From: Bolinopsis microptera | Lineage: Eukaryota > Ctenophora > Tentaculata > Lobata > Bolinopsidae | Length of the DNA stretch: 64,000 nucleotides | Direction: 5' to 3' | NCBI RefSeq assembly: GCF_026151205.1 | Contig: NC_087075.1 | Location: 680,501-744,500, forward strand | Part shown: piece after piece, positions 2,293-47,930 of the stretch | Layout: each line of letters begins with the position of its first letter | Position numbering within the stretch: position 1 is the first letter of the stretch | Translations under genes and position numbers: made by a program | Notes under the pieces: model-generated | The model's database searches: none | What the model was told of the DNA's origin: nothing | Seen by the model: the letters and a program-made list of their open reading frames with translations, nothing else

Positions 2293-2299
2293 TGGTAAT

Positions 2300-17200: not shown

Positions 17201-17975
17201 GCACCCCCTACCAATATAGGACATTACAGACGGTGCAGGGTACACCCCCTACCAATATAGGATATTACAGACGGTGCAGGGTACACCCCCTACCAATATA
17301 GGACATTACAGACGGTGCAGGGTACACCCCCTACCAATATAGGATATTACAGACGGTGCAGGGTACACCCCCTACCAATATAGGATATTACAGACGGTGC
17401 AGGGTACACCCCCTACCAATATAGGACATTACAGACGGTGCAGGGTACACCCCCTACCAATATAGGACATTACAGACGGTGCAGGGTACACCCCCTACCA
17501 ATATAGGACATTACAGACGGTGCAGGGTACACCCCCTACCAATATAGGACATTACAGACGGTGCAGGGTACACCCCCTACCAATATAGGACATTACAGAC
17601 GGTGCAGGGTACACCCCCTACCAATATAGGATATTACAGACGGTGCAGGGTACACCCCCTACCAATATAGGACATTACAGACGGTGCAGGGTACACCCCC
17701 TACCAATATAGGACATTACAGACGGTGCAGGGTACACCCCCTACCAATATAGGACATTACAGACGGTGCAGGGTACACCCCCTACCAATATAGGATATTA
17801 CAGACGGTGCAGGGTACACCCCTACCAATATAGGACATTACAGACGGTGCAGGGTACACCCCCTACCAATATAGGACATTACAGACGGTGCACCCCCTAC
17901 CAATATAGGACATTACAGACGGTGCAGGGTACACCCCCTACCAATATAGGACATTACAGACGGTGCAGGGTGCAG
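11223..17975. repeat. Satellite-like array, 41-bp unit, about 165 copies
   Basis: A 6.75-kb array with unit CCAATATAGGACATTACAGA plus CGGTGCAGGGTACACCCCCTA. Common variants are GATATT for GACATT, TGCACC for TACACC and CTCCC for CTACC. Shortened units (without GCAGGGT) and units with GCAGGCCCAACTC are concentrated at the left edge, with single examples near 16995 and the right edge. Short open frames inside are repeat translations. Confidence 0.97.
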
Positions 17976-22345: not shown

Positions 22346-23700
22346 GGTGACAAGCAGTACCCCACGTGACAAGCAGTACCCCACGTGACAAGCAGTACCC
22401 CACGTGACAGGCAGTACCCCACGTGACAAGCAGTACCCCACGTGACAAGCAGTACCCCACGTGACAAGCAGTACCCCACGTGACAAGCAGTACCCCACGT
22501 GACAAGCAGTACCCCACGTGACAAGCAGTACCCCACGTGACAAGCAGTACCCCACGTGACAGGCAGTACCCCACGTGACAAGCAGTACCCCACGTGACAA
22601 GCAGTACCCCACGTGACAAGCAGTACCCCACGTGACAAGCAGTACCCCACGTGACAAGCAGTACCCCACGTGACAAGCAGTACCCCACGTGACAAGCAGT
22701 ACCCCACGTGACAAGCAGTACCCCACGTGACAAGCAGTACCCCACGTGACAAGCAGTACCCCACCTGACAAGCAGTACCCCACGTGACAAGCAGTACCCC
22801 ACGTGACAAGCAGTACCCCACGTGACAAGCAGTACCCCACGTGACAAGCAGTACCCCACGTGACAAGCAGTACCCCACGTGACAAGCAGTACCCCACGTG
22901 ACAAGCAGTACCCCACGTGACAGGCAGTACCCCACGTGACAAGCAGTACCCCACGTGACAAGCAGTACCCCACGTGACAAGCAGTACCCCACGTGACAAG
23001 CAGTACCCCACGTGACAAGCAGTACCCCACGTGACAAGCAGTACCCCACGTGACAAGCAGTACCCCACGTGACAAGCAGTACCCCACGTGACAAGCAGTA
23101 CCCCACGTGACAAGCAGTACCCCACGTGACAAGCAGTACCCCACGTGACAAGCAGTACCCCACGTGACAAGCAGTACCCCACGTGACAAGCAGTACCCCA
23201 CGTGACAAGCAGTACCCCACGTGACAAGCAGTACCCCACGTGACAAGCAGTACCCCACGTGACAAGCAGTACCCCACGTGACAAGCAGTACCCCACGTGA
23301 CAAGCAGTACCCCACGTGACAAGCAGTACCCCACGTGACAGGCAGTACCCCACGTGACAAGCAGTACCCCACGTGACAAGCAGTACCCCACGTGACAAGC
23401 AGTACCCCACGTGACAAGCAGTACCCCACGTGACAAGCAGTACCCCACGTGACAAGCAGTACCCCACGTGACAAGCAGTACCCCACGTGACAAGCAGTAC
23501 CCCACGTGACAAGCAGTACCCCACGTGACAAGCAGTACCCCACGTGACAAGCAGTACCCCACGTGACAAGCAGTACCCCACGTGACAGGCAGTACCCCAC
23601 GTGACAAGCAGTACCCCACGTGACAAGCAGTACCCCACGTGACAAGCAGTACCCCACGTGACAAGCAGTACCCCACGTGACAAGCAGTACCCCACGTGAC
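22346..23700. repeat. Satellite-like array, 19-bp unit with CACGTG, about 71 copies
   Basis: CAGTACCCCACGTGACAAG repeats with very few variants (GACAGG in five copies, CACCTG once). Since 19 is not a multiple of three and the unit lacks minus-strand stops, three overlapping minus-strand frames of about 480 codons result (YCLSRGVLLVTWGTACHVG peptides). These are artefacts. Confidence 0.97.
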
Positions 23701-23950: not shown

Positions 23951-24790
23951 AGTACCCCACGTGCGGTCAGTACCCCACGTGTGGTCAGTACCCCACGTGC
24001 GGTCAGTACCCCACGTGTGTCCAGTACCCCACGTGTGGTCAGTACCCCACGTGTGGTCAGTACCCCACGTGCGGTCAGTACCCCACGTGTGGTCAGTACC
24101 CCACGTGTGGTCAGTACCCCACGTGTGGTCAGTACCCCACGTGCGGTCAGTACCCCACGTGTGGTCAGTACCCCACGTGCGGTCAGTACCCCACGTGTGG
24201 TCAGTACCCCACGTGTGGTCAGTACCCCACGTGTGGTCAGTACCCCACGTGTGGTCAGTACCCCACGTGTGGTCAGTACCCCACGTGTGGTCAGTACCCC
24301 ACGTGTGGTCAGTACCCCACGTGTGGTCAGTACCCCACGTGTGGTCAGTACCCCACGTGTGGTCAGTACCCCACGTGTGGTCAGTACCCCACGTGTGGTC
24401 AGTACCCCACGTGTAGTCAGTACCCCACGTGTAGTCAGTACCACACGTGTCGTCAGTACCCCACGTGTGGCCAGTACCCCACGTGTGGCCAGTACCCCAC
24501 GTGTGTCCAGTACCCCACGTGTGGCCAGTACCCCACGTGTGGCCAGTACCCCACGTGTGGCCAGTACCCCACGTGTGGCCAGTACCCCACGTGTGGTCAG
24601 TACCCCACGTGTGGCCAGTACCACACGTGTGGTCAGTACCCCACGTGTGGTCAGTTCCCCACGTGTGGTCAGTACCCCACGTGTGGTCAGTACCCCACGT
24701 GTGGTCAGTACCCCACGTGTGGTCAGTACCCCACGTGTGGTCAGTACCCCACGTGTGGTCAGTACCCCACGTGTAGTCAGTACCCCTCGC
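23951..24790. repeat. Satellite-like array, 18-bp unit with CACGTG, about 46 copies
   Basis: CAGTACCCCACGTGTGGT repeats in frame with codons (18 bp = 6 residues), so both strands show long open frames with six-residue repeats such as VSTPRV and LTTRGV. There is no start context or unique flanking domain, so I do not call a gene. The first 14 bp of the unit match the 19-bp array 250 bp upstream. Confidence 0.96.
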
Positions 24791-30417: not shown

Positions 30418-30585
30418 ACATCTAAAACTAAGACAAACCCTGATGGAGACCATGATCTCGAACAAACCTTCAAGGTATACCAAAGGATCCTCAAATCTGT
30501 AATTAACTCTGCAAAAAATACTTACTCTTGCAACCAAATCATATAAAATAAGCACGACCGTAAGAAGACATAGCAGATCATTAAT
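30418..30585 (+). pseudogene. Old plus-strand family-B element, ORF2 fragment (left part)
   Basis: The plus strand encodes PDGDHDLEQTFKVYQRILKS followed by VINSAKNTYSCNQII, then a stop. This is the linker between endonuclease and reverse transcriptase found in the minus-strand B copy at 42291-42400. The reading frame is dead by a nonsense change (ATAGAA to ATATAA). It ends at CATTAAT (30585) and resumes as ATGAACTTAGAG at 44863, so everything between is an insertion. It also preserves the empty site of transposon C1 (CTTACTCTTGCAACC). Confidence 0.85.
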
Positions 30586-31288
30586 CAGTTAAACAAAAAT
30601 TTCAGTTAAACAAAAATTTCAATTTTATGCCATTTATTACATATTAAACAAGTTTACAATAAATCAATTTGATATAAAATAAATAAATAAATAAATAAAG
30701 TCAATTTTTACAGCACAGCAATATATCTAAATATCAGATCCTCTGTAATCATAATGTATAAAAAAAGGAGCTTTTCTCTGTGCTGAAGGATGAATCAAGG
30801 CAGATCATGGTTCTGTTAGCAGGCCACCCTAGTTATGGACAATACATATATATAAAATAATTAAATTACAATTTTAAAATTGTGTCAAGATTGAACTAAA
30901 ACATAACTCAGGGTAAAATAGACGTATTCCCTTCGTCAAATTAACTATTTACAATACTAAACTTAAACGAACTCCGGGTAAAATAAACGTAATCCCTTTG
31001 TCAAACTTGCTATTTACAATAAGTTAATAAATTAATACGGTTGAAAATTATTTCATATTCAATAACAATGTAGCATCAATATAATTGATACAAATGAGGA
31101 GCATACAGTGAGAATTGCACATAACAGGAGGACTGGAGGTATGGAGCAATAATGATTGACAGTGCACCTTTCCACTGATGTTCCTAATTTCCTGTAATAG
31201 CTTAATAGGCATGGAAATACTTTGATTGCAGGGGATAGATTGGATTCACTTATGTACTGAGATAACTTAACCGAAATAACATAACTGC

Positions 31289-34200
31289 CTAGATACATTG
31301 GCTAGTGTTGGGTGGGATCATGAATTTATCGTAAGAGTTATCCCCTTGGTAATTCTCATCAGTTAGCAACATATTCATAAGAGTTTCTTTGTATAACTTA
31401 GAAAATTTCTTAACGTCGTCACACTCTCTAAGGGACTTTGGTAATATGTTCCAGGCCTTAGTTCCTAGATAGTTAAACTCCTTGTGAGATCTTGATTTAG
31501 GAGTATAAAGATTGCAGTTTTCTGCCTCACGTGATCCACCAGAAATATACGAGAATTTTCCGATAAAATGCTTTGGACATGTTTCATTGATTATACGGTA
31601 CATATATGAGCTAAGATGAACCTGTCGTCTCAAATGGAGAGGAAGCCATCCCATATTTTTGTATACATTAACCGACCTCTCTCTGATGTTTACATCTAGG
31701 GCTATTTTAGCAACCTTTTTGTACATGATATCTAACTCTCCTAGTCGTTTTTTATATGTTCTTGACCAGATGGTGTCTAAGTAGTCAAAATGTGGCAACA
31801 TAAGTGCATTAGCAAACATCTTCCTGAACTTAAGAGGGAGAAGTTTTTTTGATCTATACATAGCACCAATTCTTTTGGATATCTTTTTCTTAATGTTATC
31901 AATATGTTCATTAAATGTCAATCTGCTGTCAACTATAAGTCCAAGGTACTTATGGGATTTAGTTTCACAGATTACCAAAGTAAGGTCATCACAAATTTCA
32001 ACAAGGATGGCATCAAGGTTAGGCTTAGAGTCAAGGATCATTAGTTTTGTTTTTTCATTATTCAGGGATAGTTTATTAGCCTGAAGCCATCTGATAACTA
32101 ATTTCAACTCTTGTTTGATGTTACCATAGTTTCCTCTAGATATATTGTCAAAATATAATGCACCGTCATCAGCAAATAGATAAGGTTTAGAAAATAGGCA
32201 TGCATTAGGCAGGTCATTGATAAAAATGCTGAATAGAATTGGTCCTAATATACTTCCTTGAGGCACTCCAGAGTTCAATGAATGTAAACTGCTTATCCTA
32301 CTCCCAACTCTAGTTTGCTGTAATCTATCTGTGAGGAAGCTCCTAAACCAGCTCAATGCAGTATCTTTTATTCCATAATGCTTCAGCTTTTGAATGAGAA
32401 TATCATGGTTAACAGTATCAAATGCCTTTCTGATGTCCAGGAAGATAATTGCAGGATGCTTGGCACTGTTCTTAGCAGTAAATATACGATCAAACAGATC
32501 TAACATGAGATAAGTTGTAGAGTGATCTTTACGGAAACCATATTGATGCTCTGAAAGTATTCCCTTTTCATCAAGATATTGAGTCAGTTGGGAGTTCACA
32601 CAAAATTCGATGCACTTTCCAAGAATCGGTAAAATTGAGATTGGTCGATAATTACTAGGATTCTCAGTATCACCATCCTTATGGATTGGGGTGACTTTTG
32701 CAACCTTGCAGCTGTTTGGCATGATGCCACTGGATAAACTCAAATTTACAAGATGTGTTAATGGAGCAATAAATGCAGGTAAAATTTGTCTAAACACTCT
32801 CAATGGTATATGATCATTAGTGGATTTGCTACAAGGGATACTTGCCACATAGTCTAAGATATTGGACTCAGTTATTTCAGTAAAGCTATTCAAGCTGGTC
32901 TCGTTGTCAATCTGCTCATTTTGTAGATAAGATAGAAATTCATTTTCATTTTCCAGCTGCACTTCTGCTTGGATCTTTGGACCTATTTCAGCAAAATATT
33001 TATTGGTGGTTTCAGCATCAAGATTGTTATTGATATTGTTAGCTTTAACAGGCAGATTTGATGCTGTCTTTATCGTTTTCCATACACCCTTTAGATCATT
33101 CATGGCACACTTGGCTTTCAGTTCTGTTGCTAAGTTAGTCTTCCTATTAATTCTAGACAAATAGGTTGAATAGTTTCTCTGCCGTTTATATGCCATCCAT
33201 AATGAGTCACATTTATTACAGTGTATAAGACCATTTGGATGTATACGTCTGTTCTTGTTGTGTGTTAAAAATTTACGGTAAAGTTTCCCTTTCAATTTCT
33301 TACTTTCTAAAAATTCTGGAGATGGCTTATGGATGTAATCACTATGGCACTTAATTTGTTTGATTGGACAGAAGTGATCATAGTAGTGATCAATATGTTC
33401 GTTTAAACCATCAACTGCATCATTCAGACTAGTTGAATCTATTATTGGTCTATAATCACAGGTTTCCAAAAATTCTTTAAGAGCAGTAACATTCATTTTG
33501 CTGTGATCTCTTATTAGTAACTTCTTGAATTTTGAGGCCTTATGCACATTGAAATCGACAATGAACTTTACGACCTGATGATCTCCTATACAATCATCAA
33601 GGACTTTGCAGTCAAGAAACTTGGAGTAAGTGTTTGTTATGACAACATCGATTGTGGTCTTTGTGATTCTGTTTCCTAGTTTAGCAATGCGGGTAATATC
33701 CTGAACTACCTGTACCATTCCAAACATTTTCATTGTAATGTCTAATTTCTTATAGTTCATACTGCTGATGTTGTTTTGGTCTACATTTACATCACCCAGC
33801 CAAATAACATTCTTACTTCCTATACTCATCATGCAGTCTGTCATATAATCTAAAAATTTGTCAAGAGGACTAAACAACTCAGATCTGTAGAAACAGCAGA
33901 TGAAAATATTGCAATCTGTAAGATGGATCCAAATAGCCTCGATTTGGTCATATTGCAAAACTAAGTTTAGTTGAATCATTTTAAACTTTATGTGCTCACT
34001 GATGAGAATGCCACATCCCCCATGACCATTGTCGTTAGGACGGTCTTTGCGGATAAAAGTAAAATTCTTGGGTAGGTTTAGACTGGCTGAGTCAATATCC
34101 GACTTAAGATTTGTTTCATTCAGGCATAAAACATCTAATTTCTCTTTCCAGATTAGATCTTGGATTTCAAGACATTTTGGCATACCTGTTAGTCCTCCCT

Positions 34201-34309
34201 GCATGTTGCAATGTCCCACTGCAAGCTTTTTGGCATGGTATGAAACTGTGATTTTACTAATGCACGGGTTAATGCAAGAACTGCTGTGAGAGCATGAAAA
34301 TTTTTCCAA
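31289..34309 (-). CDS. Family A ORF2: endonuclease and reverse transcriptase
   Basis: The protein of 1006 residues has an exonuclease-endonuclease-phosphatase (APE-like) domain at about 30-250: HCNMQG (33-38), LNET (E65), GDVNVD (172-177), TTIDVVITN (D221) and GDHQ (D243, H244). These metal-binding and catalytic positions are all present. The reverse transcriptase spans about 535-800, with YRPIS, FLDIRKAFD (D625), GVPQGSILGP and LFADD (D714, D715), followed by a C-terminal region with a SHKYLGLIVD block. It would nick target DNA and copy the element RNA at the nick. The frame is uninterrupted, so this copy may be young. The start is the first methionine; the translation could begin a little earlier or later because the spacer to ORF1 is short. 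Confidence 0.93.
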   Translation of the reverse strand: MEKFSCSHSSSCINPCISKITVSYHAKKLAVGHCNMQGGLTGMPKCLEIQDLIWKEKLDVLCLNETNLKSDIDSASLNLPKNFTFIRKDRPNDNGHGGCGILISEHIKFKMIQLNLVLQYDQIEAIWIHLTDCNIFICCFYRSELFSPLDKFLDYMTDCMMSIGSKNVIWLGDVNVDQNNISSMNYKKLDITMKMFGMVQVVQDITRIAKLGNRITKTTIDVVITNTYSKFLDCKVLDDCIGDHQVVKFIVDFNVHKASKFKKLLIRDHSKMNVTALKEFLETCDYRPIIDSTSLNDAVDGLNEHIDHYYDHFCPIKQIKCHSDYIHKPSPEFLESKKLKGKLYRKFLTHNKNRRIHPNGLIHCNKCDSLWMAYKRQRNYSTYLSRINRKTNLATELKAKCAMNDLKGVWKTIKTASNLPVKANNINNNLDAETTNKYFAEIGPKIQAEVQLENENEFLSYLQNEQIDNETSLNSFTEITESNILDYVASIPCSKSTNDHIPLRVFRQILPAFIAPLTHLVNLSLSSGIMPNSCKVAKVTPIHKDGDTENPSNYRPISILPILGKCIEFCVNSQLTQYLDEKGILSEHQYGFRKDHSTTYLMLDLFDRIFTAKNSAKHPAIIFLDIRKAFDTVNHDILIQKLKHYGIKDTALSWFRSFLTDRLQQTRVGSRISSLHSLNSGVPQGSILGPILFSIFINDLPNACLFSKPYLFADDGALYFDNISRGNYGNIKQELKLVIRWLQANKLSLNNEKTKLMILDSKPNLDAILVEICDDLTLVICETKSHKYLGLIVDSRLTFNEHIDNIKKKISKRIGAMYRSKKLLPLKFRKMFANALMLPHFDYLDTIWSRTYKKRLGELDIMYKKVAKIALDVNIRERSVNVYKNMGWLPLHLRRQVHLSSYMYRIINETCPKHFIGKFSYISGGSREAENCNLYTPKSRSHKEFNYLGTKAWNILPKSLRECDDVKKFSKLYKETLMNMLLTDENYQGDNSYDKFMIPPNTSQCI

Positions 34310-34475
34310 TTTTTGCTGCTATAAACTTGTCAGAATAAGATAAATTGCAGAACTGGCAAATTTGTATGAGATAATAACAAAACTTTCTAAAACTTCAATA
34401 AACATGAGGAACAATGTGTAATTATCCCTTATCTAGAATCTAGATGAAATAAATGTTAACAATCTTTCTGAAAAT

Positions 34476-36350
34476 TCAAACTTGCTTATGGGCCCAATAC
34501 TTCAGAAATTTAGCAAGTCGAATAACACCGCTTGTATTGAGGTGACAGTTATCAGATATTTTTGCAGATGGTCTGGCAAAATAAAATTCTTTCCTGAATC
34601 CACTTCTATTATAGTTAAATAAATTATGGGTGCTAATGTAATTAAAACAAGAATCTTTGCTACACATATCCTTAATAACCTTATTCAGCTCTGCCACAAC
34701 ATCATTGCGGCCTTTTGTACTCCTGGGAAGAATATTGAGAACATTAATTGTTGCATTCGGATACACTGATTTGAGATAATTTAAGAGATTACTAATGTCA
34801 CCCGCTGCATCCTTCAGTGACTTTGAGCCAAAATAGACTGTGTTCACATTATTAGTTCCTGTCATAATATAAATAATAGATGGGGATGGAACGGAGTGTA
34901 GGTCAGTTTTTAGTTTATTTAACATTACTTTGGCATCAGCCCCAGGATAAAACAGTTTACTAGCACTAACAGTGGACGATGATAACTTGTCCGCATCAAG
35001 AAACCTGAACATAGAGCTGCTTATGAATAGGACAGACTTTTGTGAAGCTTTGGCTGGCTGTTTGCAAACTGAGAGTGCAGGTGAAGAAGAGTCTGTCAGT
35101 TTGTGTCCTGAATGAGGGATGGGTGGGGGCGGTGAACGCAGACCAAACTCAGTTGACTGAGTGATCCTAGGGGGCTTCATCAGTCTTAGGGTGATGCTGA
35201 TCCGGGGTTCATCACACATTTCGTCTGGCAGTATCTCATGTTGAAAGTCAGCCTGAGACAATTTGGACATGATGAAGACATCTCCATGCTGAAGCTGCAC
35301 AGAGCCCACAACTTCATTGCTGCCGTTTGATCTAATTTGCAGTGTTCTCGTCGCACCCAGTGAAATGGTTACAATATCAGAGTGTTCTACAATACATGAT
35401 TCAGAATCGCTATGAGCTGGCATGAACTCTGCTCCAGTTTCATATAGATTGACGAGAATACTATTGTGTCTGAAATTGGGTAATATCACATTAATGTAGG
35501 AGCTGAGTTTAGCAAGGTAGGAATCATTGTGTACACTTTTTGGGTCATGTGTTGCACCTGAATACTCATAGGGAAAGTCACCAAAATAAACCGATTTCCT
35601 GTTTTTAAAACCGTGACTGAACTCAAGTTCTTCCATTAATAGATCAAGTGAAAATTTAGAGAATGGACCATCATCTAGTAGGGTAACTGGTTTCACTGGT
35701 GATGGGGAACAAGTTACAGATATATTCATTGGCCCCGGTGTTATAGGATCGTAGACAGGGGCAGGGACCAAGTTTGGATATTTGTCTCTGGGCTTAGGGG
35801 TGTTGATCCGTGATTCACCAGTAGCAGTAGATACAGGGAGATCAGACACATCATCCTCGTCTGCCATAACCTCGTTAACAACAATCTCACTGATAACAAT
35901 CTCGTTTCCAACAACCTCCTGTGGAACAACCTTGTCCACGACATCGTTGTCAACAAACAAACTGTCCGATACAACATCTTCCACAACAATGTCATCTACA
36001 TCAAACGCTTCTACTTGATTGATAACAACGTGTGACTGAGGGGTAATGGTTATGATCTCACATTCAATCTCCTCTGATAAGTTCGGCAGCAAATTTTCAC
36101 ACTTAAAACTCTGTTCTTGTATTTGAGTTTGATCTGATATGAGACTATCATTGTACTGAGCAATGAGATCACTAGTTCTGATAATTTCATTCAATAAAGA
36201 CAACTTTTTTTCTAAAAAGTCAATCTTGATGTCTTTTGACAGACAATTGTTACAGTTCTCTGATTTTTCAGACTGGAATGAAAAGTTCAAATGTTCTAAA
36301 GGGCGCTCACAAAAGTGGAGACTAATGTCTGAGCTCTGATTATTTGACAT
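34476..36350 (-). CDS. Family A ORF1: AlkB-type dioxygenase domain fused to SGNH hydrolase
   Basis: The protein of 624 residues has three parts. Residues 1-225 look disordered, with a CNNC pair near 33-36 and an acidic, valine-rich stretch (115-165). Residues about 228-395 form an AlkB-like 2-oxoglutarate/Fe(II) oxygenase: YFGDFPYEYSG (255-265), NLY (301-303), HSD (H313, D315), QHEI (H371) and RISITLR (R383, R389). This matches the AlkB signatures NxY, HxD...H and RxNxTxR, with spacing close to cellular AlkB. Residues about 438-620 form an SGNH/GDSL-type hydrolase with SSSM (S446), GTNN (498-501) and DNCH (D600, H603). Esterase-like ORF1 proteins are known in CR1-type elements. The AlkB module would be expected to oxidise methyl groups on RNA or DNA bases; that is inferred from family and not shown here. 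Confidence 0.85.
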   Translation of the reverse strand: MSNNQSSDISLHFCERPLEHLNFSFQSEKSENCNNCLSKDIKIDFLEKKLSLLNEIIRTSDLIAQYNDSLISDQTQIQEQSFKCENLLPNLSEEIECEIITITPQSHVVINQVEAFDVDDIVVEDVVSDSLFVDNDVVDKVVPQEVVGNEIVISEIVVNEVMADEDDVSDLPVSTATGESRINTPKPRDKYPNLVPAPVYDPITPGPMNISVTCSPSPVKPVTLLDDGPFSKFSLDLLMEELEFSHGFKNRKSVYFGDFPYEYSGATHDPKSVHNDSYLAKLSSYINVILPNFRHNSILVNLYETGAEFMPAHSDSESCIVEHSDIVTISLGATRTLQIRSNGSNEVVGSVQLQHGDVFIMSKLSQADFQHEILPDEMCDEPRISITLRLMKPPRITQSTEFGLRSPPPPIPHSGHKLTDSSSPALSVCKQPAKASQKSVLFISSSMFRFLDADKLSSSTVSASKLFYPGADAKVMLNKLKTDLHSVPSPSIIYIMTGTNNVNTVYFGSKSLKDAAGDISNLLNYLKSVYPNATINVLNILPRSTKGRNDVVAELNKVIKDMCSKDSCFNYISTHNLFNYNRSGFRKEFYFARPSAKISDNCHLNTSGVIRLAKFLKYWAHKQV

Positions 36351-37207
36351 AGTTATATTATCAAGAGTTCAATGTTCAGAAGCACAATAAACACTGTAAA
36401 CGCAATACCTTCAGTCCAGATAGTAGTTTTGATGAGAATAGTTTTGATGAGAAGGAGGAGGATGAGTAATCTTCAAGTACACTCACAGCAGTCCTTTGCA
36501 CGTCAACACTTACGCTCGTCTATCATATCTCATACCTCAAATTATTTGTTATATAGTAGTGTTGAAAGTATTAAAACGGAATCCTAATTCAAAGTGCAGT
36601 ATGGTTGTCACTCTTTAAATAGATTAGATATAGGTTGACGGGGCAAAGGAGTGTTCGTGCTGTTCGCTATTGCTCACACCAAACGGCAACCTAGTAAATG
36701 TTTTGTATGAACACCGGTCTCCATCACGATACAAAATTAGGATTGTAGAATTTATTGTATAACTATTAGTGCAGTGGAGGTAGCGGTGTGGTGCATTAAT
36801 AGAGTGACAGCCTACTGATTTAGAGTTGTTTTTAGGTGAGCATAATGGGTGTATTTTTGGAACTAATGGCAACTTTAAAATTGGTTCTTTTAATCATTTA
36901 TTAAATATCAATTTAAAAATATATAAATCTGGAATCTGTTCACACTGTGAACCAGTCCTAAAAATCTCAAAAACCCTCCTAAATTAAATATTAAAAACGT
37001 CTCAGTAATGGAAATAGTCATACAATTAAGAAATTAACCAAATTCTTAATATCTACCTAAGAGAAACATTGCATACCTACCTACTAAGTCAATTTCTACC
37101 TGTAATACACTAAATATTAGGTTAATTACATAGGTGGTGGAGTCAGCACACATTTACCAAAATCAAAATTTTTTAATAGGAGGAGCCTGTGGGCCGAGAT
37201 CACTGAA

Positions 37208-39157
37208 TTAAATTTGATGAAGGGGATTGTTTTCAAATGACAGCTGCATTATGTCATAATCGCTTGTGGTCCATGCCGAATCATTATAAGCATGTTGCAG
37301 CTTTAGAAGTGCCTTTTTCAGGCGACTTTTAGCAAGGCTAATCTTGTAGGAGTAGTCAAAGAGCTTCAGTTTTGGTGCAATTGTGTTCCAAATTTTGGTG
37401 GATCTCGATATAAAGTCATTAGATGGGAGTTGTGAAATGATAGTGGTTTCCTTTCTAGAAGATGACTGATAATGCTGTTGCAGTGATGCTGGGCACCTTA
37501 GTTTTAGTATTTTAAAAACTTCCATAAATGTGTGATATGTATATAAATTTTTGAAAGCCAGGATGTTTTGTTGCTTGAAAAGTGGTTTACAGTGCTCTAG
37601 TTGGAAGAATGTATGGTCAAGTGCCTGGCTGTCAAACTCTCTTGTTCTTGCACATGTTAGGAACTTGTTTAGGTATGCCTCTTTATCACCAAAGAGGACC
37701 CGTACGCAGTGCTTCTGAGACAGCCAGATACTTGCTGTCCTAAAGAGTGCTGCATCACCCCAAACTGAGATACAATATGTAAGGTGGGATTCAAATAGTG
37801 TGTGGTAGAGGTCTTTATGGAGTTCCTTTGGTACAGAGTCCCTAATTCTATTTAAGGTGGCAGAGGCATAGTTTAACTTTCGTTTAAGTGCTGTTATATG
37901 AGGCCCCCAGGAAAGCTGTTCGTCAATAACAACTCCAAGAAACTTAGTTGCTTTGGTTTTTTTAATTGGAAAGCCATCAATATGGAGTTGAAGCGAATCT
38001 GGCAATTCTACTGGTTTACTAGCCTTTGGTTTAAAATGCATATAACAGCACTTTGACATGTTGATGTGAAGTTTGTTAAGGATCATATACTTTTTTATAC
38101 AGCTTAGCAATTTGTTGCCTTTCTCATAAGCTTCTTCTACAGTTTTTCCATCAATAAAAATGTTGGTGTCGTCAGCAAATAGTATGAAAGTTCCTAAATC
38201 CGAGGAATTGGCAATATCATTTATGTATAGAAGAAAAAGGAGCGGTCCCAAAACAGAGCCTTGTGGAACTCCATATTTAATGATAAGGTTTTCGGATTTT
38301 TCATTAAGGACTTCTGTGTACTGTGTTCTATTTGATAAGTAGCTTTTAATAAGACAGTTTGCATTGCCTCTTATTCCATACCTATCTAGTTTTGTTAGGA
38401 GTGTACTATGGTCGATTGTATCAAATGCTTTACTCAAATCTATAAATATTCCTAGAACATGGTTTCGTTTTTTTATGCTCTCTTCAATAATCCTAACAGA
38501 GTAGTTAACAGCATGGCTAGTAGAATGGGACTTGCGGAAGCCAGATTGGTTTTCATCAAGGATATTTTGTGACAGAGCGAAACTGTAGATACGGCTGTAT
38601 ATCACTTTTTCAAATATCTTACCAAATATAGGCAGTGTAGAGACAGGTCTGTAGTTTCCTACATCCTCTTGGTTTCCTTTCTTAAATATGGGAGTAACTT
38701 TCCCAACTTTCAAAACATCAGGAAATACCCCGTTCATCATGAGTTTGTTGAAATGTTGGGCTAAAACAGGGCAGATTAAATGAGCTGACTTTTTGATTAT
38801 ACGGATCGGGATATCACTAGATTTACCATTTTCCAACTTGGAAATTATTTCCATGAGCTCAGTATGTGAACAGTCAGATAGGAATATAGAGTTATTGTTG
38901 GATGGCAGGAGGTAGTCTTCAAATGTTGAAAATTCAGAAGCCTGTATAGGCAGGTCAGCTATTGATTCATTTAGAGTGGAGGCAATTGAGTTAAAGTATT
39001 TGTTGAACTCGTTTGCAATAACCCTTCTATCTGTTATTTTTCTGTTGTCGATTATAAATGAGGGTTTTATAGTCTTTTTACACTTCCCTCTAAGTTCATT
39101 AATGATCTGCCATGTCTTCTTACGGTCGTGCTTATTTTCTATGATTTGGTTGCAAGA
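37208..39157 (-). CDS. Family B ORF2, reverse transcriptase part (split by transposon C1)
   Basis: About 650 codons encode the polymerase half of ORF2. Visible motifs are YRPVSTLPIFGK (171-182), the A motif IFIDLSKAFD (D242), YGVPQGSVLGP (297-307) and LFADD (D331, D332), followed by thumb-like and C-terminal regions (FLGVVIDEQLSWG, WNTIAPKLKLFDY). The open frame seems to start with a methionine at 39163, but that codon comes from the terminal repeat of C1. The true coding sequence continues from 42291 on the other side of the insertion, where the frame is kept (494 codons upstream). The combined ORF2 would be about 1143 residues, usual for the CR1 group. The old B(+) copy at 44863-45473 is its diverged paralogue. 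Confidence 0.9.
   Translation of the reverse strand, partial: SCNQIIENKHDRKKTWQIINELRGKCKKTIKPSFIIDNRKITDRRVIANEFNKYFNSIASTLNESIADLPIQASEFSTFEDYLLPSNNNSIFLSDCSHTELMEIISKLENGKSSDIPIRIIKKSAHLICPVLAQHFNKLMMNGVFPDVLKVGKVTPIFKKGNQEDVGNYRPVSTLPIFGKIFEKVIYSRIYSFALSQNILDENQSGFRKSHSTSHAVNYSVRIIEESIKKRNHVLGIFIDLSKAFDTIDHSTLLTKLDRYGIRGNANCLIKSYLSNRTQYTEVLNEKSENLIIKYGVPQGSVLGPLLFLLYINDIANSSDLGTFILFADDTNIFIDGKTVEEAYEKGNKLLSCIKKYMILNKLHINMSKCCYMHFKPKASKPVELPDSLQLHIDGFPIKKTKATKFLGVVIDEQLSWGPHITALKRKLNYASATLNRIRDSVPKELHKDLYHTLFESHLTYCISVWGDAALFRTASIWLSQKHCVRVLFGDKEAYLNKFLTCARTREFDSQALDHTFFQLEHCKPLFKQQNILAFKNLYTYHTFMEVFKILKLRCPASLQQHYQSSSRKETTIISQLPSNDFISRSTKIWNTIAPKLKLFDYSYKISLAKSRLKKALLKLQHAYNDSAWTTSDYDIMQLSFENNPLHQI
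39154..39157. repeat. Left target-site duplication of transposon C1 (AAGA)
   Basis: AAGA directly precedes GGGCATATTTC at 39158, and the same four bases follow the right end at 42287-42290. The empty site in the B(+) fragment near 30527-30537 has AAGA once (as TCTT). Confidence 0.85.
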
Positions 39158-39544
39158 GGGCATATTTCAAAACTGGTTCCACTTGGAGGAAATTTCAGAA
39201 ATGCTTTTATCAATCCAATTTTTGAAATTTTAGAATGTTTGAACTTTATACTTTGAAAATCTGCAATATTGGAGACATCAATCTACTCTATCATGCAAAA
39301 ATAGCTCATTCTATCATCGACACTAAAACAATCCTCAAAAGTGTGCTCTACTTCATAACGTCTCTAGATTAGGCCTTTGCTTGAACTAAACCCAAATTTT
39401 GTGTGTTAGTATATAATGAGATTTCATTTTTACAGACTGATATAAAGCCCAATCAAGGAGAATGAGCTAACATGGGGAAAATGTGGTTTAAAAATTTTTG
39501 TCACTCCGTAACAAAAAAGTATCAAAAAGTTATCTATTCTCTTA

Positions 39545-40783: not shown

Positions 40784-41428
40784 CGAATTTTTTTTATTGA
40801 CATTGGACACATACTGTCCAATCAGGTTGTCAAAAATACACCAAAGGAGTTTGCAACCTATGCTGACAGTCTTCTCAAGTCAATCAATGTCGTGTATGTT
40901 GGAGATCTAGCCTCAGGTATGGAAGAGGAGTGCAGAAGGAAAGCAAGACCAGTTCCAGGAACCTTGAAAGTGCACCACATTGTCCGTTCTTTCAAAGATA
41001 ACAGCTGCATCCTTACCTTTAGGGGCTCGTCAGTTGATGGATCTTTGATAAAGAAGATAGAGTATGCCGATGAATCATCTGCTCAGACGACTTCAACAAC
41101 AGTTATTGGAGAGGAGGAAACACCATCATCTTCTAACAGCTGTGAAACTTACAACATTGATCAATTCGTGATTGTTAACTGGGAGGGTGAACTTTACCCA
41201 GGAAAAGTTATTGGCAAGCCAGACAGCAGTAACCTTACCGTTAAGTGCCTTGTACCAGCTGGAAAACCTGGATCAATCTGGAAATGGCCTGACAAAGAGG
41301 ACGTCCATGATTACGAACTTAGTGACGTGAAAGGAGCTATTGGTATGCCGAAGCTTTTGCCGGGAACAGGGAGAAGAATAGAGTTTGAAGTACCTGAACT
41401 TGCTTATAAGTGGGGTGTAAAGGTTTGA
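40784..41428 (+). pseudogene. Transposon C1 internal coding fragment with Tudor/SH3-like segment
   Basis: An open frame of about 214 codons starts immediately after a stop that lies inside a GTCACTCCGTAAC motif. It reads FATYADSLLKSINVVYVGDL, then a linker, then IDQFVIVNWEGELYPGKVIG and GSIWKWPDKEDVHDYELSDV. The second part looks like a small beta-barrel (Tudor- or SH3-like) with conserved aromatic residues. The first part resembles the C-terminal portion of proteins encoded by repeated elements in invertebrate genomes, as far as I recall. It may be the C-terminal exon of the transposase or an accessory protein of this family. No catalytic triad is visible, so function is open. Confidence 0.5.
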
Positions 41429-42290
41429 ATTTTCGTTAATCTGTGTACATTGTACAGTTTATAACTTTAAACAAATAAGCCCAGATTTTTAAACATTTCA
41501 TTATGATATGTCACTCTGTAACAGATTCTTAACCGAGTAATATTTGTAGAAAGTTAAACCAATGAGACTGATTTTTATGCAGTTGTTTATATTTTTCAAA
41601 CAGTGATTTAAATGTGCTGTATTTTAAGGGAAATTTACAGAGTTGTAAGCTACAGGGTTGATTTTTTATCACATGATCGTATTTTTATTCATAATTGTGA
41701 TCAAGACTAATGAATTGTACCAGATTTGATTTATTTCACATCAATAAATTTGTGTGTCTACCTTGTTTAAGTGTTATCTATCTAATTTTGAAAAGAATTC
41801 TACTATTTAGAGCCAGGAACAGGATGAAAAATGATGAAAAATTCGAGTGGAATGAGAGACTGTTTGATGCGTCACTCCGTAACAGTCACTCCGTAACAAT
41901 CCCCAAAATTTTTGAAGCCTCAAATTTTTTATTCCTTAGGCAATACACACTTTTTCTTGATTAATTATTGAAGGAAAATGTCTGAAAAGTGCCTGGAAGC
42001 CGTCAAAATGCAACTTTCATGAATATCTGAGATAAAAATTAGGTCAGAATATGGGTGTACCAAAATCTGAAAATTTATCTAGTCACTCCGTAACGAAATT
42101 TCGACTTTTAATTACTCGAAAACGGATTGATTTCTCACTATTTTCTTTGGCAGATATGTAAATCGTAGGTTTGAAAAGCCTTAGAAACATAATTTAACCA
42201 ATAATGAACCTGTTTTCTTGGACATTTTTCGGAAAAAATGGGTAAAATTGTCACACCGTAACATTCTATAGTTTTGAAATATGCCCAAGA

Positions 42291-43772
42291 GTAAGTATTT
42301 TTTGCAGAGTTAATTACAGATTTGAGGATCCTTCGGTATACCTTGAAGGTTTGTTCGAGAACATGGTCTCCATCAGGGTTTGCCTTAGTTTTAGACGTAA
42401 TCCAGTTATCTTTTAATTCATGTTTTTTTTCAACGGCTGCTGAGATACTATCTGTTATCCAGGGGTTATTGATAGGATTCCGTTTAGTAGTTTTTGGCTT
42501 TACAAGTTTGCATGTTGCATCAAGTACATGATCAAATAATTTAGTAAAATCCGAGAATTCATGAGAAGTGTGGAGCTTTGAGAGGTCAGTGTTCAGTAGG
42601 GTTAGGAATTTATTAAGGTTGGCATTACTGAAGTCGTAGTACTGGACATGTTTTTCACTTTTTGGACCAACCTCAAATTCGATGTCAGTGAATTCAAATG
42701 TTGGAGCATGGTCACCAATTCTATCTGTTATACAACCTGAGAGAACACAGTTACCAGGGTCATTCGTGAGGATGTTGTCAATACAAGATGGTTTGCAATT
42801 TGGTCTCTCATGTGTAGGTATCGAAATAACGGGAGCGAAACCATTTCTAAATAAGCATTCTTCAAAAAGAGTATAGTTGCCATGACCAGCGTCACCATTC
42901 ACTTTAAGAAGGTCAACATTAAAGTCCCCCATTATACGTACACCAGATTTAGGGAGGAGTTTACATATGTGATCAAATGACTTAAGGAAATTATGAATGT
43001 CACCATTAGGAGGGCGATAGATGACCCCTGAGATGAGTGTGAGCTTGCTGGATGATTGAGTGATCTTAACAAAGATTGATTCAATATCAGGCGTGCAGTA
43101 GCCAACATTTTCTATGACTTCTGCATTAAGGTGATTTGCTACATACAGGGCAACACCAGTCCCTTTCAGCTTGTTCTCCTGAGTGACCTGATAAAAACTG
43201 TTGTATTGCGGTATTCTGTATAGTTCTTTAAGAGGTTCATCTGTGTTTGTTTCAGCGATACCAATTACAGAGAAATTTAGTTCAATCCGTTTGAGTTCAA
43301 CATTAAGACAATCGAAGTTGGTTTTGTTACCATCTAAGTTGACAAAGTAGGATGTGAATTTTGAGTGTGTGGATGAAAGATTACATGAGTTTTGAAGCTC
43401 CCTGACTACCCTATTAAGATCAGTTGTAGAGTAGCTCTGACATTGGTCTAGAACATTCGAAATTTTTTGAATAGTTTCGTCATCACATCCACCTTCATCA
43501 TCATAAAATTTATCACCACCATCACTAATCATCCCAGAGAAGGGGTTGTAGCGTGGTATCACATTCAATGAACAAACCTTACATACCCATAGACCATTGG
43601 TGGGGCAGAAACCTGCTACTTTATAACATTTAGTATGAATAGCTGTCCGACAGGCTTCACATTCCAGTAGGGGCTGCCCAATGTTGATGGGCCTTGAGCA
43701 TGGCTCACAGACCTCCTTAATTAATTTCATGATCATAGTAATGTGTCGGTTAGGTTGGACCAGTGGATCCAA
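42291..43772 (-). CDS. Family B ORF2, PHD finger and endonuclease part (split by C1)
   Basis: 494 codons up to the C1 junction. A PHD-type C4HC3 zinc finger lies at the N terminus (C22, C25, C38, C41, H46, C49, C64, C67), followed by a spacer and an APE-like endonuclease at about 140-365. Its motifs are GIAETN (E174), GTGVALYV (204-211), GDFNVD (282-287), CIDNILTN (D332) and GDHAP (D354, H355). The catalytic residues are kept. A PHD finger at the front of ORF2 is known in CR1-group elements and may read chromatin at the target; that role is inferred. The start codon lies inside the end of ORF1 (23-bp overlap), which suggests coupled re-initiation. The frame past 42291 in this copy enters transposon C1 and is not native. 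Confidence 0.9.
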
Positions 43773-44862
43773 CCCTCTGTGCTGACTCCCTAGACACCTT
43801 TTCCTTCAGAAACACACAGTTTTTCATGTGGCTTACAAACTTAGCTAAACCTCTACTTCCTAGGTGGATTGTGTCGTTACCCCTAGTGAACTTAACCGAT
43901 AATAGCTTATTGTTATCTAAAAAACCATACATACCCTGAAACCAAATATTAGGAAAACAGTTCTTTATCATCTCCTGTACCAAGTTGTTGTAGAGCATTA
44001 TGTTTTTATTCATTTCATGGATTCTTGATGGTAAAACAGGTACAACAAAAATGTTAGTAAGTGGACACAATTGACGTATTTCAGTTAGTTTGTTCTTTAA
44101 AGTTGACACTGTCTCGTGGATATCTGAGACATTTCTTACGTTTTCACAGCGTAGATCGTTGGTACCACACATAAGGAAAGCGTTGGAGAATCCAGCACAC
44201 AGGTGTGGATCGATGTCTTTGACACGGGCAGCCTTGACTCGTTTACCAGGGAAGGAATGACCAACTTTACCTGCACCATCCCCAAAGTTGACATCTTTGG
44301 TATTCGAATCACCGATTAAAACGATGCTTCGTCGAGACTGGCTGCTGAGAGATCTGAAGGTGATCGAAAATCTCTCCTCTGTTGGGTTATCATCAGGTAA
44401 TTTTGGCACACCGTGGCGGTACCAATTTTGTGAAGACCTTGTCATAGTGTAAAGTGAGTTAGACTTCACATCAAGCTCAATAGGATCTAGGTCTTTGTCT
44501 TGTTTGGATTCAAAAAGCACAGTTCTAGTCGCACCAATTGAGATTGTGACGATTTGCGAGTTGGCAAGAATAGTGGATTCATCATCAGAATGCATAGCTA
44601 GGTAGCTTTGGGATGGAGAGAGTCTGTCTGAGGAAGGGTAGTGGTTAATGAGGACCGAGTTTGGCTTGTGCTCGAGTTGTAATTCTGAGGAGAACCTGTC
44701 AATAACAGAAACAAGTTCAGGTGGGATAGGCTCAAGTTCTTTAGGGGGCTGGGAACCAGTGTAGCTGTAGGGCTCTCCATACAGCCGGACGCTGTGGCCA
44801 TTCTCTTCGATGAAGTCTCCAGAGTCCTTAAGATAACCTAGAAGGTCTCCTACACTGCTTAG
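43750..44862 (-). CDS. Family B ORF1, partial: AlkB-type dioxygenase fused to SGNH hydrolase
   Basis: About 370 codons are open from the junction at 44862 to the stop, although the first methionine is at 44595, inside the domain. Visible AlkB features upstream of it are LYGEPYSYTGS and VLINHYP (NxY). After it come AMHSDDE (HxD), YRHGVPK (second His) and RFSITFR (RxNxTxR type). The SGNH domain has IGDSNT (nucleophile Ser in GDS), CGTNDLR and GNDTIHLGSRG (Asp and His, three apart). Thus both active sites look complete, although the protein N terminus is lost. Sequence identity to family A ORF1 is low outside these motifs, so the fusion is old. The last 23 bp overlap ORF2. Confidence 0.82.
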   Translation of the reverse strand, partial: LSSVGDLLGYLKDSGDFIEENGHSVRLYGEPYSYTGSQPPKELEPIPPELVSVIDRFSSELQLEHKPNSVLINHYPSSDRLSPSQSYLAMHSDDESTILANSQIVTISIGATRTVLFESKQDKDLDPIELDVKSNSLYTMTRSSQNWYRHGVPKLPDDNPTEERFSITFRSLSSQSRRSIVLIGDSNTKDVNFGDGAGKVGHSFPGKRVKAARVKDIDPHLCAGFSNAFLMCGTNDLRCENVRNVSDIHETVSTLKNKLTEIRQLCPLTNIFVVPVLPSRIHEMNKNIMLYNNLVQEMIKNCFPNIWFQGMYGFLDNNKLLSVKFTRGNDTIHLGSRGLAKFVSHMKNCVFLKEKVSRESAQRVGSTGPT

Positions 44863-45473
44863 ATGAACTTAGAGGGAAGTGTAAAAAGAGTATCAAACCC
44901 TCATTTATAATCGACAACAGAAAAATAACAGATAGAAGGGTTATTGCAAACGAGTTCAACAAATACTTTAACTCCATTGCCTCCACTCTAAATGAATCAA
45001 TAGCTGACCTGCCTATACAGGCTTCTGAATTTTCAACATTTGAAGACTACCTCCTGCCATCCAACAATAACTCTATATTCCTAACTGACTGTTCACATAC
45101 TGAGCTCATGGAAATAATTTCCAAGTTGGAAAATGGCAAATCTAGTGATATCCCAATCCGTATAATCAAAAAGTCAGCTCATCTAATCTGCCCTGTTTTA
45201 GCCCAACATTTCAGCAAACTCATGATGAGCGGGGTATTTCCCGATGTTTTGAAAGTTGGGAAAGTTATATTTAAGAAAGGAAACGAAGAGGATATAGGAA
45301 ACTACAGACCTGTCTCTACTCAGTACACAGCCTAAATTTGGTAAGATATTTGAAAAAGTGATATACAGCCGTATCTATAGTTTTGCACCTAAGCTTAAGC
45401 TTTTTGACTACTCCTACAAGATCAGCCTTGCTAAAAGTCGCCTGAAAAAGGCACTTCTAAAGCTGCACCATCT
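44863..45473 (+). pseudogene. Old plus-strand family-B element, ORF2 fragment (middle part)
   Basis: The plus strand continues B ORF2 exactly where the 30418-30585 fragment stops, with NEFNKYFNSIASTLNESIAD and MEIISKLENGKSSDIPIRII. The frame breaks after GNYRPVST, and an internal deletion removes the whole polymerase core, joining IYSRIYSFA to PKLKLFDYSYKISLAKSRL. It is close in sequence to 37208-39163 but disabled by at least one indel and the deletion. It stops at about 45473, where an unrelated 365-bp segment is inserted. Confidence 0.88.
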
Positions 45474-45839
45474 TACTATATATAAAGCGAGACGATATAT
45501 ATATAATATATATATATATATTTATTTATCCGCACCATTTTACTGACACCACGGCATCAACTTTAACACGGGTTTCCGCAAAAACCGTACAAGATATAAA
45601 ACTGAAACTTTTTTAACTGATTCAAATGCTTTAATGGCCTTCAAATCAGCATGAAAAAATCGAAAATCGGCCAAGGAATAAGAATTTTAGTACCCAAAAT
45701 TTGGACCCCCAAGTGGTGTCAAAAACGCGAATTAAATAGGTAATAATTATTTTTACTGGGAGACTTTAGGGTAGGAAACTGATCCGGCCACCAAAGAGCC
45801 TTGACACCAGTCTTAAAGGTTTGACGGGTTCCTGCTAGT
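45474..45839. mobile_element. Insertion of about 365 bp in the old B(+) copy, unclassified
   Basis: The B(+) coding sequence breaks after AAGCTGCACCAT and resumes near 45840 with TTATAATGATTCAGC, matching the C-terminal end of B ORF2. The intervening sequence begins with a (TA)n microsatellite (about 45508-45522) and contains TGACACCAC and its inverse GTGGTGTCA. No clear terminal repeats or target duplication could be fixed by eye. Confidence 0.45.
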
Positions 45840-47930
45840 GCTTATAATGATTCAGCACGGACCTCAAGCGATTATGACATAATACAGCTATCATTTGAAA
45901 ACAATCCCCTTCAACAAATTTAATCCAGTGTTCTCGGCCCACAGGTTCCTCCTATTTAAAAATTTTGATTTTGGTAAATGTGTGCTGACTCCACCACCTA
46001 TGTATTTAACCTAATATTTAGTGTATTACAGGTAGACATTGACTTAGGAAGGTATTTTTCTCTTAGGTAGATGGGCAATTCTCATAAAAAGCGTCACAAA
46101 TCACTAATAGAAATTTTTTCCTCCAATTTCTATAAAAGTTATATCATGCGTTAGCTTATAAAGATCTCTATTGGACACCATTGTAGTGTCAGCAGTTTGC
46201 AGACTTTTTAGCTGCTAAATTGACCAATCAGTGTTTAAATTGGGTGTCCGTCTGTGACGTTTTTGTCACGTCCGTGACGGGTTACGGACAGGACAAAATA
46301 AGAATAGTCACGTCCGTGACTGGTCACGGACAGGACAAAATAAGAATAGTCACGTCTGTGACTTGTCACGGACAGGACAGAATAAGAATAGTCACGTCCG
46401 TAATGCATCACGGACAGGACAATTCTTATTTTGTCCCGTCTGTATGCACTTTTAGAGTAGCTGAAATCTAAAAACTGTATGTAATTTATGTATGTGATAC
46501 ATACTGATAAATACTTTTCACGTACACAGTAGGGTAGGATTTGGTAACTTGGAACATGGGGTAACTTGGAACAGCCTGGGGTAACTTTTAACGGCACTGG
46601 GTAACTTTGACCACAAAAATTAATCGATTTTGGCAACCTTGAACACCATTCAATGAAAGGATGTAACTTATCAGAACAACTTACCTGGTTCAGTTTATGG
46701 TTCTGGGCTGGTTTGATCTTACAACACCTTCAGCTGAGGTATTTCTTATACTTATGCTAATTATACCTAAAAATCCATTATCGTGTTACCTAATAATCGA
46801 CGAGAATGCATGAAAATGTTGATAAATCTTCAGTTAATTTGTATTCCCAAATGATTATTGAGGTTTTAGTATACCTGATAGAATCACTTGGAACACTCTA
46901 ATTGAGGTATCAAGGAAGTTCTAATGCTTGAATTCAATTAGAAACTCTAAAAAAAGTGTCACAGACACGACAAAATAAGCCATAGTCACGTCCGTGATGC
47001 ATCACAGATGTGACAGAATAAGACATTGTCACGTCCGTGACTCATTTTCAGGCGTCACGGACGCGTCACGGACGTGACGACACCTTTAATTATTCTCCAC
47101 AATTAATTTAATTGCAACAACATTTTACGTACAAATTAATTCATATTTGTCACATAGATAAATTGGCCAAGGAGGAATATTTTAGTTCTTGTCCCATTGA
47201 AATTGGACCATAAATAACGGTACTACATAGGATAGAATCAGGCGTCACGGACAGTACAAAGTGCTGACACCTCTGAAAAAAGCCTGTTTTTTGCTTAATT
47301 ATTTAAATTGATAATGAGTTTTTAAGTTATTCATGTTAAAAGTGATGACACAGTAAATTTCAAACTTTTATCAATCAATTGGTGCTTGAATCAACGTTTT
47401 GTTATTTACTGAAATGAAATGATATGAGATTTAAAATTCGAGGGAGTAAATGACGCTTTTTATGAGAATTGCCCAGATATTAACAATTTGGTGAATTTCT
47501 TAAATTTTGTATGACTATTTCCATTATTGAGACGTTTTTAATATTCAATTTAAGAGGGTTTTTGAAATTTTTATAGGACTGGTTCACAGTGTGAACAGAT
47601 TCCAGATTTATATATTTTTTAACTGATATTTAATAAATGATTAAAAGAACCAATTTTAAAGTTGCCATACTAAAGCCTTTAGGTCCAAAAATATACCCAT
47701 TATGCTCACTTAAAAACAACTCTAAATCAGTAGGCTGTCACTCTAGTAATGCACCACACCGCTGTCCGCTACCTCCACTGCACTAAAAGTTATACAATAA
47801 ATTCTACAATCCTAATTTTGTATCCTGATGGAGACCGGTGTCCATACAAAACATTTACTAGGTTGCCGTTTGGTGTGAGCAATAGCGAACAGCACGCACA
47901 CTCCTTTGCCCCGTCAACCTATATCTAATC
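45840..47930 (+). mobile_element. Old B(+) element, ORF2 end and 3' UTR, split by C2
   Basis: The last codons (SDYDIIQLSFENNPLQQI, stop) are followed by a 3' UTR that mirrors 36600-37207 in inverse orientation, with shared blocks such as TTCTCGGCCCACAGGTTCCT and AAACATTTACTAGGTTGCCG. Transposon C2 interrupts it at 46073-47474. The UTR is cut at 47930 by the LTR element and resumes at 55989. Confidence 0.85.
46073..47474. mobile_element. DNA transposon C2, 1402 bp, 24-bp terminal inverted repeats, AGAT duplication
   Basis: The ends are perfect 24-bp inverted repeats beginning GGGCAATTCTCATAAAAAG (46073-46096 and 47451-47474). They are flanked by AGAT on both sides (46069-46072, 47475-47478), while the uninterrupted B 3' UTR has AGAT once (in TTAGGTAGATATTAAG). 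No transposase is encoded, so it is non-autonomous. The interior carries a dozen or more copies of the dyad GTCACGTCCGTGAC or variants, four of them in a 41-bp tandem array (46267-46431). Several copies of GGTAACTTGGAAC lie near 46535-46600. The 4-bp duplication and GGGCA terminus match C1, suggesting one superfamily. Confidence 0.88.

Follow-up and report, generated by a model that had tools for sequence, protein, structure and literature searches.

AlkB-type dioxygenase and SGNH hydrolase domains fused in ORF1 of non-LTR retrotransposons of the ctenophore Bolinopsis microptera, and their reversed counterpart in a Helitron

Background

What might a retrotransposon do with an AlkB-type dioxygenase and an SGNH hydrolase, joined in the first of its two open reading frames? 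This question is raised by a locus of the ctenophore Bolinopsis microptera, lying within a stretch of 64,000 nucleotides (contig NC_087075.1, positions 680,501 to 744,500; hereafter the window). ORF1 of zebrafish L2 is an esterase, and CR1/L2-like non-LTR retrotransposons with PHD and esterase in their ORF1 were reportedly described by Kapitonov and Jurka in 2003. Judged by titles and the beginnings of abstracts, the literature gave no description of AlkB in a non-LTR element, though Repbase entries or surveys may contain one, and the literature on ctenophore non-LTR retrotransposons gave nothing on AlkB-SGNH. A limited search likewise found no report of AlkB together with an esterase in a retrotransposon ORF1.

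Here we describe the element, called A, as a LINE whose esterase-type ORF1 has an AlkB domain inserted, and which has an unexpected Helitron cousin. Loci are numbered with L and database proteins with P.

Results

Element A is a young non-LTR retrotransposon

Features of element A and of the other elements discussed are collected in Table 1. Downstream of ORF1 lies an ORF2 with Pfam matches to reverse transcriptase (RVT_1, 6e-37) and endonuclease (Exo_endo_phos, 1.9e-4, under its cut-off). Its solved relatives include LINE-1 ORF2p and R2, and Pfam gave no RNase H match in it. The frame is listed from a TTG; its real start is probably a later ATG. Characteristic traits of non-LTR elements are all present: endonuclease and reverse transcriptase share one ORF, the two ends bear no long direct repeat, i.e. 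no LTRs, and the tail consists of short repeats.

Table 1. Coordinates of the described features (window positions unless a locus is given)
Feature	Position	Strand	Evidence
Element A, whole non-LTR element of some 5.9 kb, with GTTTTAA at the 5' end and an ATTT-repeat tail at the 3' end	30677..36577	-	ends common to other genomic copies
A, 5' UTR, 227 bp; copies show two 5'-end variants	36351..36577	-	copy comparison
A, ORF1, 624 aa: predicted coiled coil, disordered linker, AlkB, linker, SGNH	34476..36350	-	Pfam, AlphaFold2
A, ORF1: long helix predicted at aa 34-78 (probably a coiled coil), with CxxC at aa 33-36	36117..36251	-	AlphaFold2
A, ORF1: AlkB-type 2OG-Fe(II) dioxygenase domain (aa 217-393); H313, D315, H371, R383, R389	35172..35702	-	Pfam, alignment, structure
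A, ORF1: SGNH/GDSL hydrolase domain (aa 433-624); S446, G498, N500, D600, H603	34479..35054	-	Pfam, alignment, structure
A, ORF2, at most 1006 aa: APE-type endonuclease and reverse transcriptase	31289..34309	-	Pfam, solved relatives, copies
A, 3' UTR with terminal ATTT repeats	30677..31288	-	copy ends
B1, distantly related element, 5'-truncated copy: open frame with most of AlkB, and SGNH	43753..44868	-	PF13532, six-frame HMM
B1, N-terminal part of ORF2: PHD-like finger, then endonuclease	42138..43772	-	Pfam matches below cut-offs
B-type ORF2, reverse transcriptase part; the endonuclease part lies about 3 kb away	37208..39163	-	Pfam, similarity
Helitron: SGNH, AlkB, DUF6570, Helitron_like_N, PIF1 in one giant frame	L061:3983-9901, L069:2-4198; G000 C10:16874382 onward	+	Pfam

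The searched genome (264,652,675 bases in 232 contigs) contains at least 81 ORF1 matches. Twenty full-length ORF1 copies, 19 from outside the window and the window copy, were taken with their flanks; they span residues 1 to 622 or 624 with 99-100% identity, in open frames without stops. Sixteen of the 19 non-window copies align with the window from 36577 to about 30677 in one piece (98.8-99.8% nucleotide identity), L039 aligns in two pieces, and L026 and L030 align in part. In the 18 copies printed (window included), the 5' start is exactly GTTTTAA in 11 and lies within about 10 bp in the other seven, and ATTT repeats terminate all 18. No consistent target-site duplication was found among these 18 copies; duplications are absent or very short, candidates being seen only in L027 (12 bp) and possibly in L035 (7 bp). 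ORF1 is intact in 20/20 copies, which were chosen for intactness, and the 1006-aa ORF2 frame in 12/20. Because 20 intact ORF1 copies are 99-100% identical, we regard element A as a young, high-copy non-LTR family.

A sequence-only reading of this DNA had placed ORF1 directly upstream of an endonuclease/reverse transcriptase ORF, and the arrangement recurs: ORF2 comes after ORF1 in all 20 family A copies (in part in L026 and L030) and in all three copies of family A2 (L043-L045). The same reading had suggested a search for AlkB, SGNH and reverse transcriptase on one element; besides the A2 copies, the combination occurs in a Mnemiopsis gene model (P0067), in which AlkB-SGNH is fused to a reverse transcriptase resembling that of element A ORF2. 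Assembly joining, or a host gene beside a reverse transcriptase, is ruled out by the 20 genomic copies, most of them with shared ends, and by the P0067 fusion. Weak support for the linkage of ORF1 and ORF2 comes from contig sizes: 7 of the 33 ORF1 matches on contigs of 4.5 kb-1 Mb share their contig size with one of the best 120 of 4245 ORF2 matches, and an offset control with all 113 ORF1 matches gave a mean of 1.15 and a maximum of 4. P0115, a protein with 80% identity to ORF2, is assigned to a Tenacibaculum MAG, on a 3.5-kb contig, and is probably animal DNA binned with the bacterium.

Both active sites of the ORF1 protein are complete

The N-terminal helix block is predicted by AlphaFold2 with pLDDT 65-90, and C36 is kept in at least 90% of 21 rows. 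The AlkB domain possesses the HxD...H iron ligands and the 2-oxoglutarate-binding arginine, and its predicted structure is a double-stranded beta-helix close to AlkB enzymes. The hydrolase domain combines the Ser, Gly, Asn and His (with Asp) blocks of SGNH enzymes with an alpha/beta fold; 4c1b, an 'ORF1-encoded protein', is among the structure matches of ORF1. Pfam, alignment and AlphaFold2 agree in this with the sequence-only reading, which had recognized AlkB elements and an SGNH set in an intact 624-residue frame, and the profile search and structure prediction that it had proposed returned a significant AlkB match and the AlkB fold with its HxD...H residues. A chance motif match is ruled out by Pfam, structure and conservation.

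Among solved sequences, ALKBH3 and ALKBH2, enzymes with m1A/m3C as substrates, come closest to the family A AlkB domain. ALKBH5 and FTO are absent among the structure matches listed, an absence that by itself proves nothing. E317 occupies the position of the ALKBH3 residue found as Cys in 8jnk, an active-site crosslink entry; the position is Glu in 100 of 101 aligned relatives (see below), and ALKBH5 is not known to have an acidic residue there. As judged from sequence, an ALKBH2/3-like site with acidic E317 would favour m1A/m3C over m6A.

Relatives in protein and contig databases

Residues 200-624, compared with 5.8 billion proteins, have 113 relatives at E <= 1e-3; the nine that bear species names all come from the ctenophore Mnemiopsis leidyi. 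In the alignment of the query with 100 of the 113 (the 13 left out are mostly shorter), H313, D315 and S446 are identical in all 101 rows, R383 and R389 in 100, and H371, D600 and H603 in 99 each. P0067 deviates where its ORF1 runs into the reverse transcriptase (His371 to Asn, D600 to Glu, H603 to Gly); the other exceptions are gaps in P0034, P0035 and P0071, and Gly498 to Ala in P0088. Mean pairwise identity is 0.418 in AlkB, 0.417 in SGNH and 0.13-0.22 in the linkers, and AlkB and SGNH distances correlate (r 0.755, reached in 0 of 1000 permutations). No relatives were found in the viral contigs scanned. A scan of genome contigs gave eight loci, matching on the SGNH side only, in records titled as bacterial.

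Further AlkB-SGNH families in the genome

The window harbours a second element, B1. Its AlkB domain matches PF13532 with 1.6e-21, the six-frame HMMs give 7.5e-31 for AlkB and 2.8e-15 for SGNH, and the SGNH blocks are of the classical GDSN type. The N-terminal part of ORF2, with PHD-like finger and endonuclease, also follows ORF1 in copy L052 (99%), and in L053, a B1 copy elsewhere, an open frame of 692 aa contains a weak match to PHD. We infer that the separate reverse transcriptase part in Table 1 belongs to B1, because endonuclease and reverse transcriptase parts lie side by side at 30418-30591 (+). The stretch that separates the endonuclease and reverse transcriptase parts of B1 contains a 178-aa open frame (40892-41428, +) with no Pfam match.

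Segments 30418-30591 (+) and 44859-45920 (+) are pieces of another B-type copy with 85-94% protein identity. As the two lie on either side of the entire 14-kb minus-strand block, that copy seems to enclose elements A and B1. Window positions 1-25000 contain tandem arrays of 25-bp (2298-6476), 41-bp (11243-17971, 166 copies), 34-bp (18551-21010), 19-bp (22347-23700) and 18-bp (23951-24786) units, and the long open frames at 18.5-24.9 kb fall on arrays of this kind.

A genome search with B1 gave at least 111 matches. When matches less than 2.5 kb apart were joined, at least 66 A loci and at least 108 B loci resulted, of which 52 and 67, respectively, have a stop-free frame of 500 aa or more, without overlap between A and B; these counts are lower bounds, and both domains were checked in part of the loci only. 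Eight B-type ORF1s are 619-737 aa long as read, some extending past the fetched stretch. All eight have an AlkB match over the Pfam cut-off and the SGNH residues; PHD-type matches at E <= 0.01 occur in six and GDSL-type matches in four, all below cut-off. In family A ORF1, Pfam finds the esterase and no PHD match. Two further kinds of ORF1, C (L065) and D (L067), have AlkB followed by an SGNH-like domain (GDSL 0.0073 and 0.001, below cut-off), and L066 is close to family A4. The labels A to A4 and B1 to B8 denote twelve ORF1 families informally, without formal family definition.

Nineteen representatives were aligned, 13 from the B. microptera genome (both window elements included) and six database proteins. 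All 19 are identical in H313, D315, E317, Q366, H371, R383, S385 and R389 of AlkB and in S446, G498, N500, D600 and H603 of SGNH, whereas Y303 is F in two and R251 is H in four. The B-type AlkB is less ALKBH2/3-like: B1 matches ALKBH3 with only 6.2e-4, and the sole solved match of the PHD-bearing P0113 up to E 0.1 is ALKBH8 (0.025). It is confirmed that the AlkB-SGNH architecture of ORF1 is far more general than one element. That related elements keep the pair with intact active sites suggests that it may help mobile DNA to copy itself.

A Helitron carries the pair in reversed order

Searching the genome with PF13532 gave 587 first-look candidates, the best 150 of which were scored and yielded 151 matches, each row listed being over the cut-off. 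Probable host genes are one ALKBH2-like (L062) and two ALKBH3-like (L063, L064), with the AlkB of each in a single open frame. L061 and L068 each begin a giant frame in which SGNH precedes AlkB. In L061, DUF6570 (7.5e-14) comes after the pair, and Helitron_like_N (2e-20) and PIF1 (3.4e-22) lie in the adjoining piece, L069. A Helitron carries both domains, in reversed order compared with the LINEs. Four further AlkB matches among those listed sit in frames longer than 2,000 aa.

Selection on ORF1

Polymorphism was counted in 19 copies of equal ORF1 length, L040 (626 aa) being dropped. Whole ORF1 has 28 synonymous and 31 nonsynonymous variants (pN/pS 0.31, p 1.2e-5), AlkB 8 and 4 (0.14, p 0.0011), SGNH 10 and 8 (0.22, p 0.0018), residues 1-216 9 and 15 (0.44, p 0.046), and the linker 394-432 1 and 4 (1.51, p 0.8). 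ORF2, in 12 copies, has 20 and 13 (0.16). Variant counts are small, and the choice of full-length copies biases against nonsense, not missense, variants. The twelve catalytic and near-catalytic residues printed are kept in all 19 copies. AlkB and SGNH are under purifying selection. A decayed passenger is ruled out by pN/pS.

Origin of the AlkB domain

In one AlkB tree, 24 element rows were split from six cellular and phage rows with support 100/98; in another, 19 element rows from five (100/99.8). When host genes were included, the host ALKBH2-like gene joined human ALKBH2 (99/97), the two ALKBH3-like genes joined human ALKBH3 (88/90), and 22 of 23 element rows, Helitron included, formed one branch (99/95) with L065 outside. 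Support for all 23 element rows together was 70/92 (not starred), and A and B alone as a clade were not rejected (p-AU 0.097). The B-type rows are one clade in both the AlkB (100/99.7) and SGNH (100/100) trees, and the Helitron AlkB groups with them (93/92). In the tree, element AlkB domains do not group with ALKBH2/ALKBH3 proper, and L065 joins neither branch. Long-branch warnings concern L061, L065, L067 and the branches to outgroups, and make the placements in these trees unsure.

Family A AlkB also matches 41 plasmid records (best 34.9% identity over 83%) and six phage records, and bacterial AlkBs are about as similar to it as ALKBH3. Read most simply, AlkB would have been gained once, long ago, next to SGNH; the two would then have shared a long history, with at least one transfer to a Helitron at a later time, and the Helitron may have captured its AlkB from a LINE. 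A second gain is possible, since L065 falls outside the element branch. Recent host capture is made unlikely by these trees, long-branch warnings included.

Discussion

Element A shares with CR1/L2-like elements an ORF2 with APE endonuclease and reverse transcriptase, an SGNH esterase at the C-terminal end of ORF1 and, in its B-type relatives, a putative PHD-like finger. It differs by the AlkB domain between the N-terminal part and the esterase, and family A has CxxC/coiled coil instead of PHD. Animal ALKBH3 and ALKBH2 are stand-alone repair enzymes, whereas the element domains form a separate branch. Helitrons, typified by DUF6570, Helitron_like_N and PIF1, are DNA transposons, and the one in this genome has SGNH-AlkB on its N-terminal side, in the opposite order. 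Another retroelement with an AlkB-superfamily domain is an orchid Ty3/Gypsy lineage encoding an ALKBH5-like m6A demethylase; it is an LTR element with a separate ORF of ALKBH5 type, in one plant lineage (PMC9289625). Element A, in contrast, is non-LTR, has its domain fused with SGNH in ORF1, is closest to ALKBH3/2 in sequence and belongs to many families. The same paper also cites AlkB domains in plant RNA viruses (Alpha-/Betaflexiviridae, Closteroviridae; PMC9289625). There, too, a selfish element encodes AlkB. Unlike element A, these viruses are not known to have reverse transcriptase or SGNH.

We give an even chance to the proposal that ORF1p is the nucleic-acid-associated protein of a CR1/L2-like LINE, with AlkB clearing m1A/m3C and SGNH serving a separate step. 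Once translated, the protein would coat the RNA of its own element, the cis preference known for other LINE ORF1 proteins. With Fe(II), O2 and 2-oxoglutarate, AlkB would then strip methyls from the Watson-Crick face (m1A, m3C) of the RNA template and/or the nascent single-stranded DNA. As these methyl groups block reverse transcriptase, a de-alkylase on an RNA-coating ORF1p would make full-length copies likelier. For SGNH, a step of ester hydrolysis or one related to membranes may be envisaged, in line with proposals on the esterases of other LINEs. The sequence-only reading had suggested that the element may carry its own nucleic-acid demethylase for protecting its RNA or cDNA, or for countering host methylation. 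The demethylase is partly supported, as it agrees with the fold, an ALKBH2/3-like active site and purifying selection, the activity itself being predicted. RNA or cDNA may be what it protects; the Helitron with the same pair moves the balance away from RNA alone, towards single-stranded nucleic acid generally. Countering of host methylation (m6A/6mA) is conceivable, the results speaking neither for it nor against it. Helitrons are not known to transpose through RNA, and their exposed strand is DNA; a role directed to single strands would cover LINEs and Helitron alike and would explain why both carry the pair. Against the proposal count the weaker ALKBH2/3 likeness of the B-type proteins, and the bacterial plasmid AlkBs that match family A about as closely as ALKBH3 does. 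With at least one ALKBH2-like and two ALKBH3-like genes present in the host, the benefit of a private copy would be hypothetical.

Other substrates of AlkB, m6A/6mA or protein, are possible and would be compatible with the sequence. We consider it unlikely that AlkB serves as an anti-silencing eraser, which would remove m6A from element or host RNA, or 6mA from DNA, and so evade host recognition, a role suggested for the orchid Gypsy AlkB: the orchid ALKBH5-like protein sets a precedent, demethylating m6A in vitro (PMC9289625), but the family A domain resembles ALKBH3/2 in sequence. Distinctly unlikely, in our view, is an AlkB that is mainly a module for single-strand binding or chaperoning in ORF1p, with chemistry of little importance. 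LINE ORF1 proteins are RNA-binding chaperones, and Pfam finds no zinc knuckle or RRM in family A ORF1, which has a predicted coiled coil; pure binding, however, would not need Fe and 2-oxoglutarate ligands, and these are identical in 19/19 representatives in spite of low overall identity and in 99-101 of 101 relatives.

Rated lower again is a joint eraser, in which AlkB (N-dealkylation) and SGNH (deacylation) would act on a modified nucleic acid or a shared ligand and move as a unit. The recurrence of the pair in LINE-type ORF1 kinds A, B, C and D, and reversed in the Helitron, is in keeping with it; the reversed order could nevertheless be a chance rearrangement, and SGNH esterases without AlkB occur in other LINEs (4c1b), which speaks for an SGNH role of its own. 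Least credible, and highly improbable, is a hitch-hiking fragment of a recently captured host ALKBH gene with no fitness role. ALKBH2/3-like genes exist in the host, yet they group with the human enzymes while 22 of 23 element rows occupy another branch, long branches notwithstanding, and the many diverged families and purifying selection also oppose it. To return to de-alkylation of single strands, a broader form of it is tentative and rather doubtful: AlkB-SGNH may be a mobile two-enzyme module, by which transposons that replicate differently (LINEs through RNA, Helitrons through single-stranded DNA) would clean or unmask their own single strands and which would have driven a genome-wide expansion of these elements in ctenophores.

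If true, selfish DNA of animals would carry its own nucleic-acid de-alkylase on a large scale, and the question of what extra ORF1 domains do in LINEs would have a testable answer. AlkB is used in the laboratory to read methylated tRNA before reverse transcription; the elements would be a natural case of such demethylation before reverse transcription and might yield new demethylases. Through the Helitron, one protein module would connect an RNA-based with a DNA-based transposon class.
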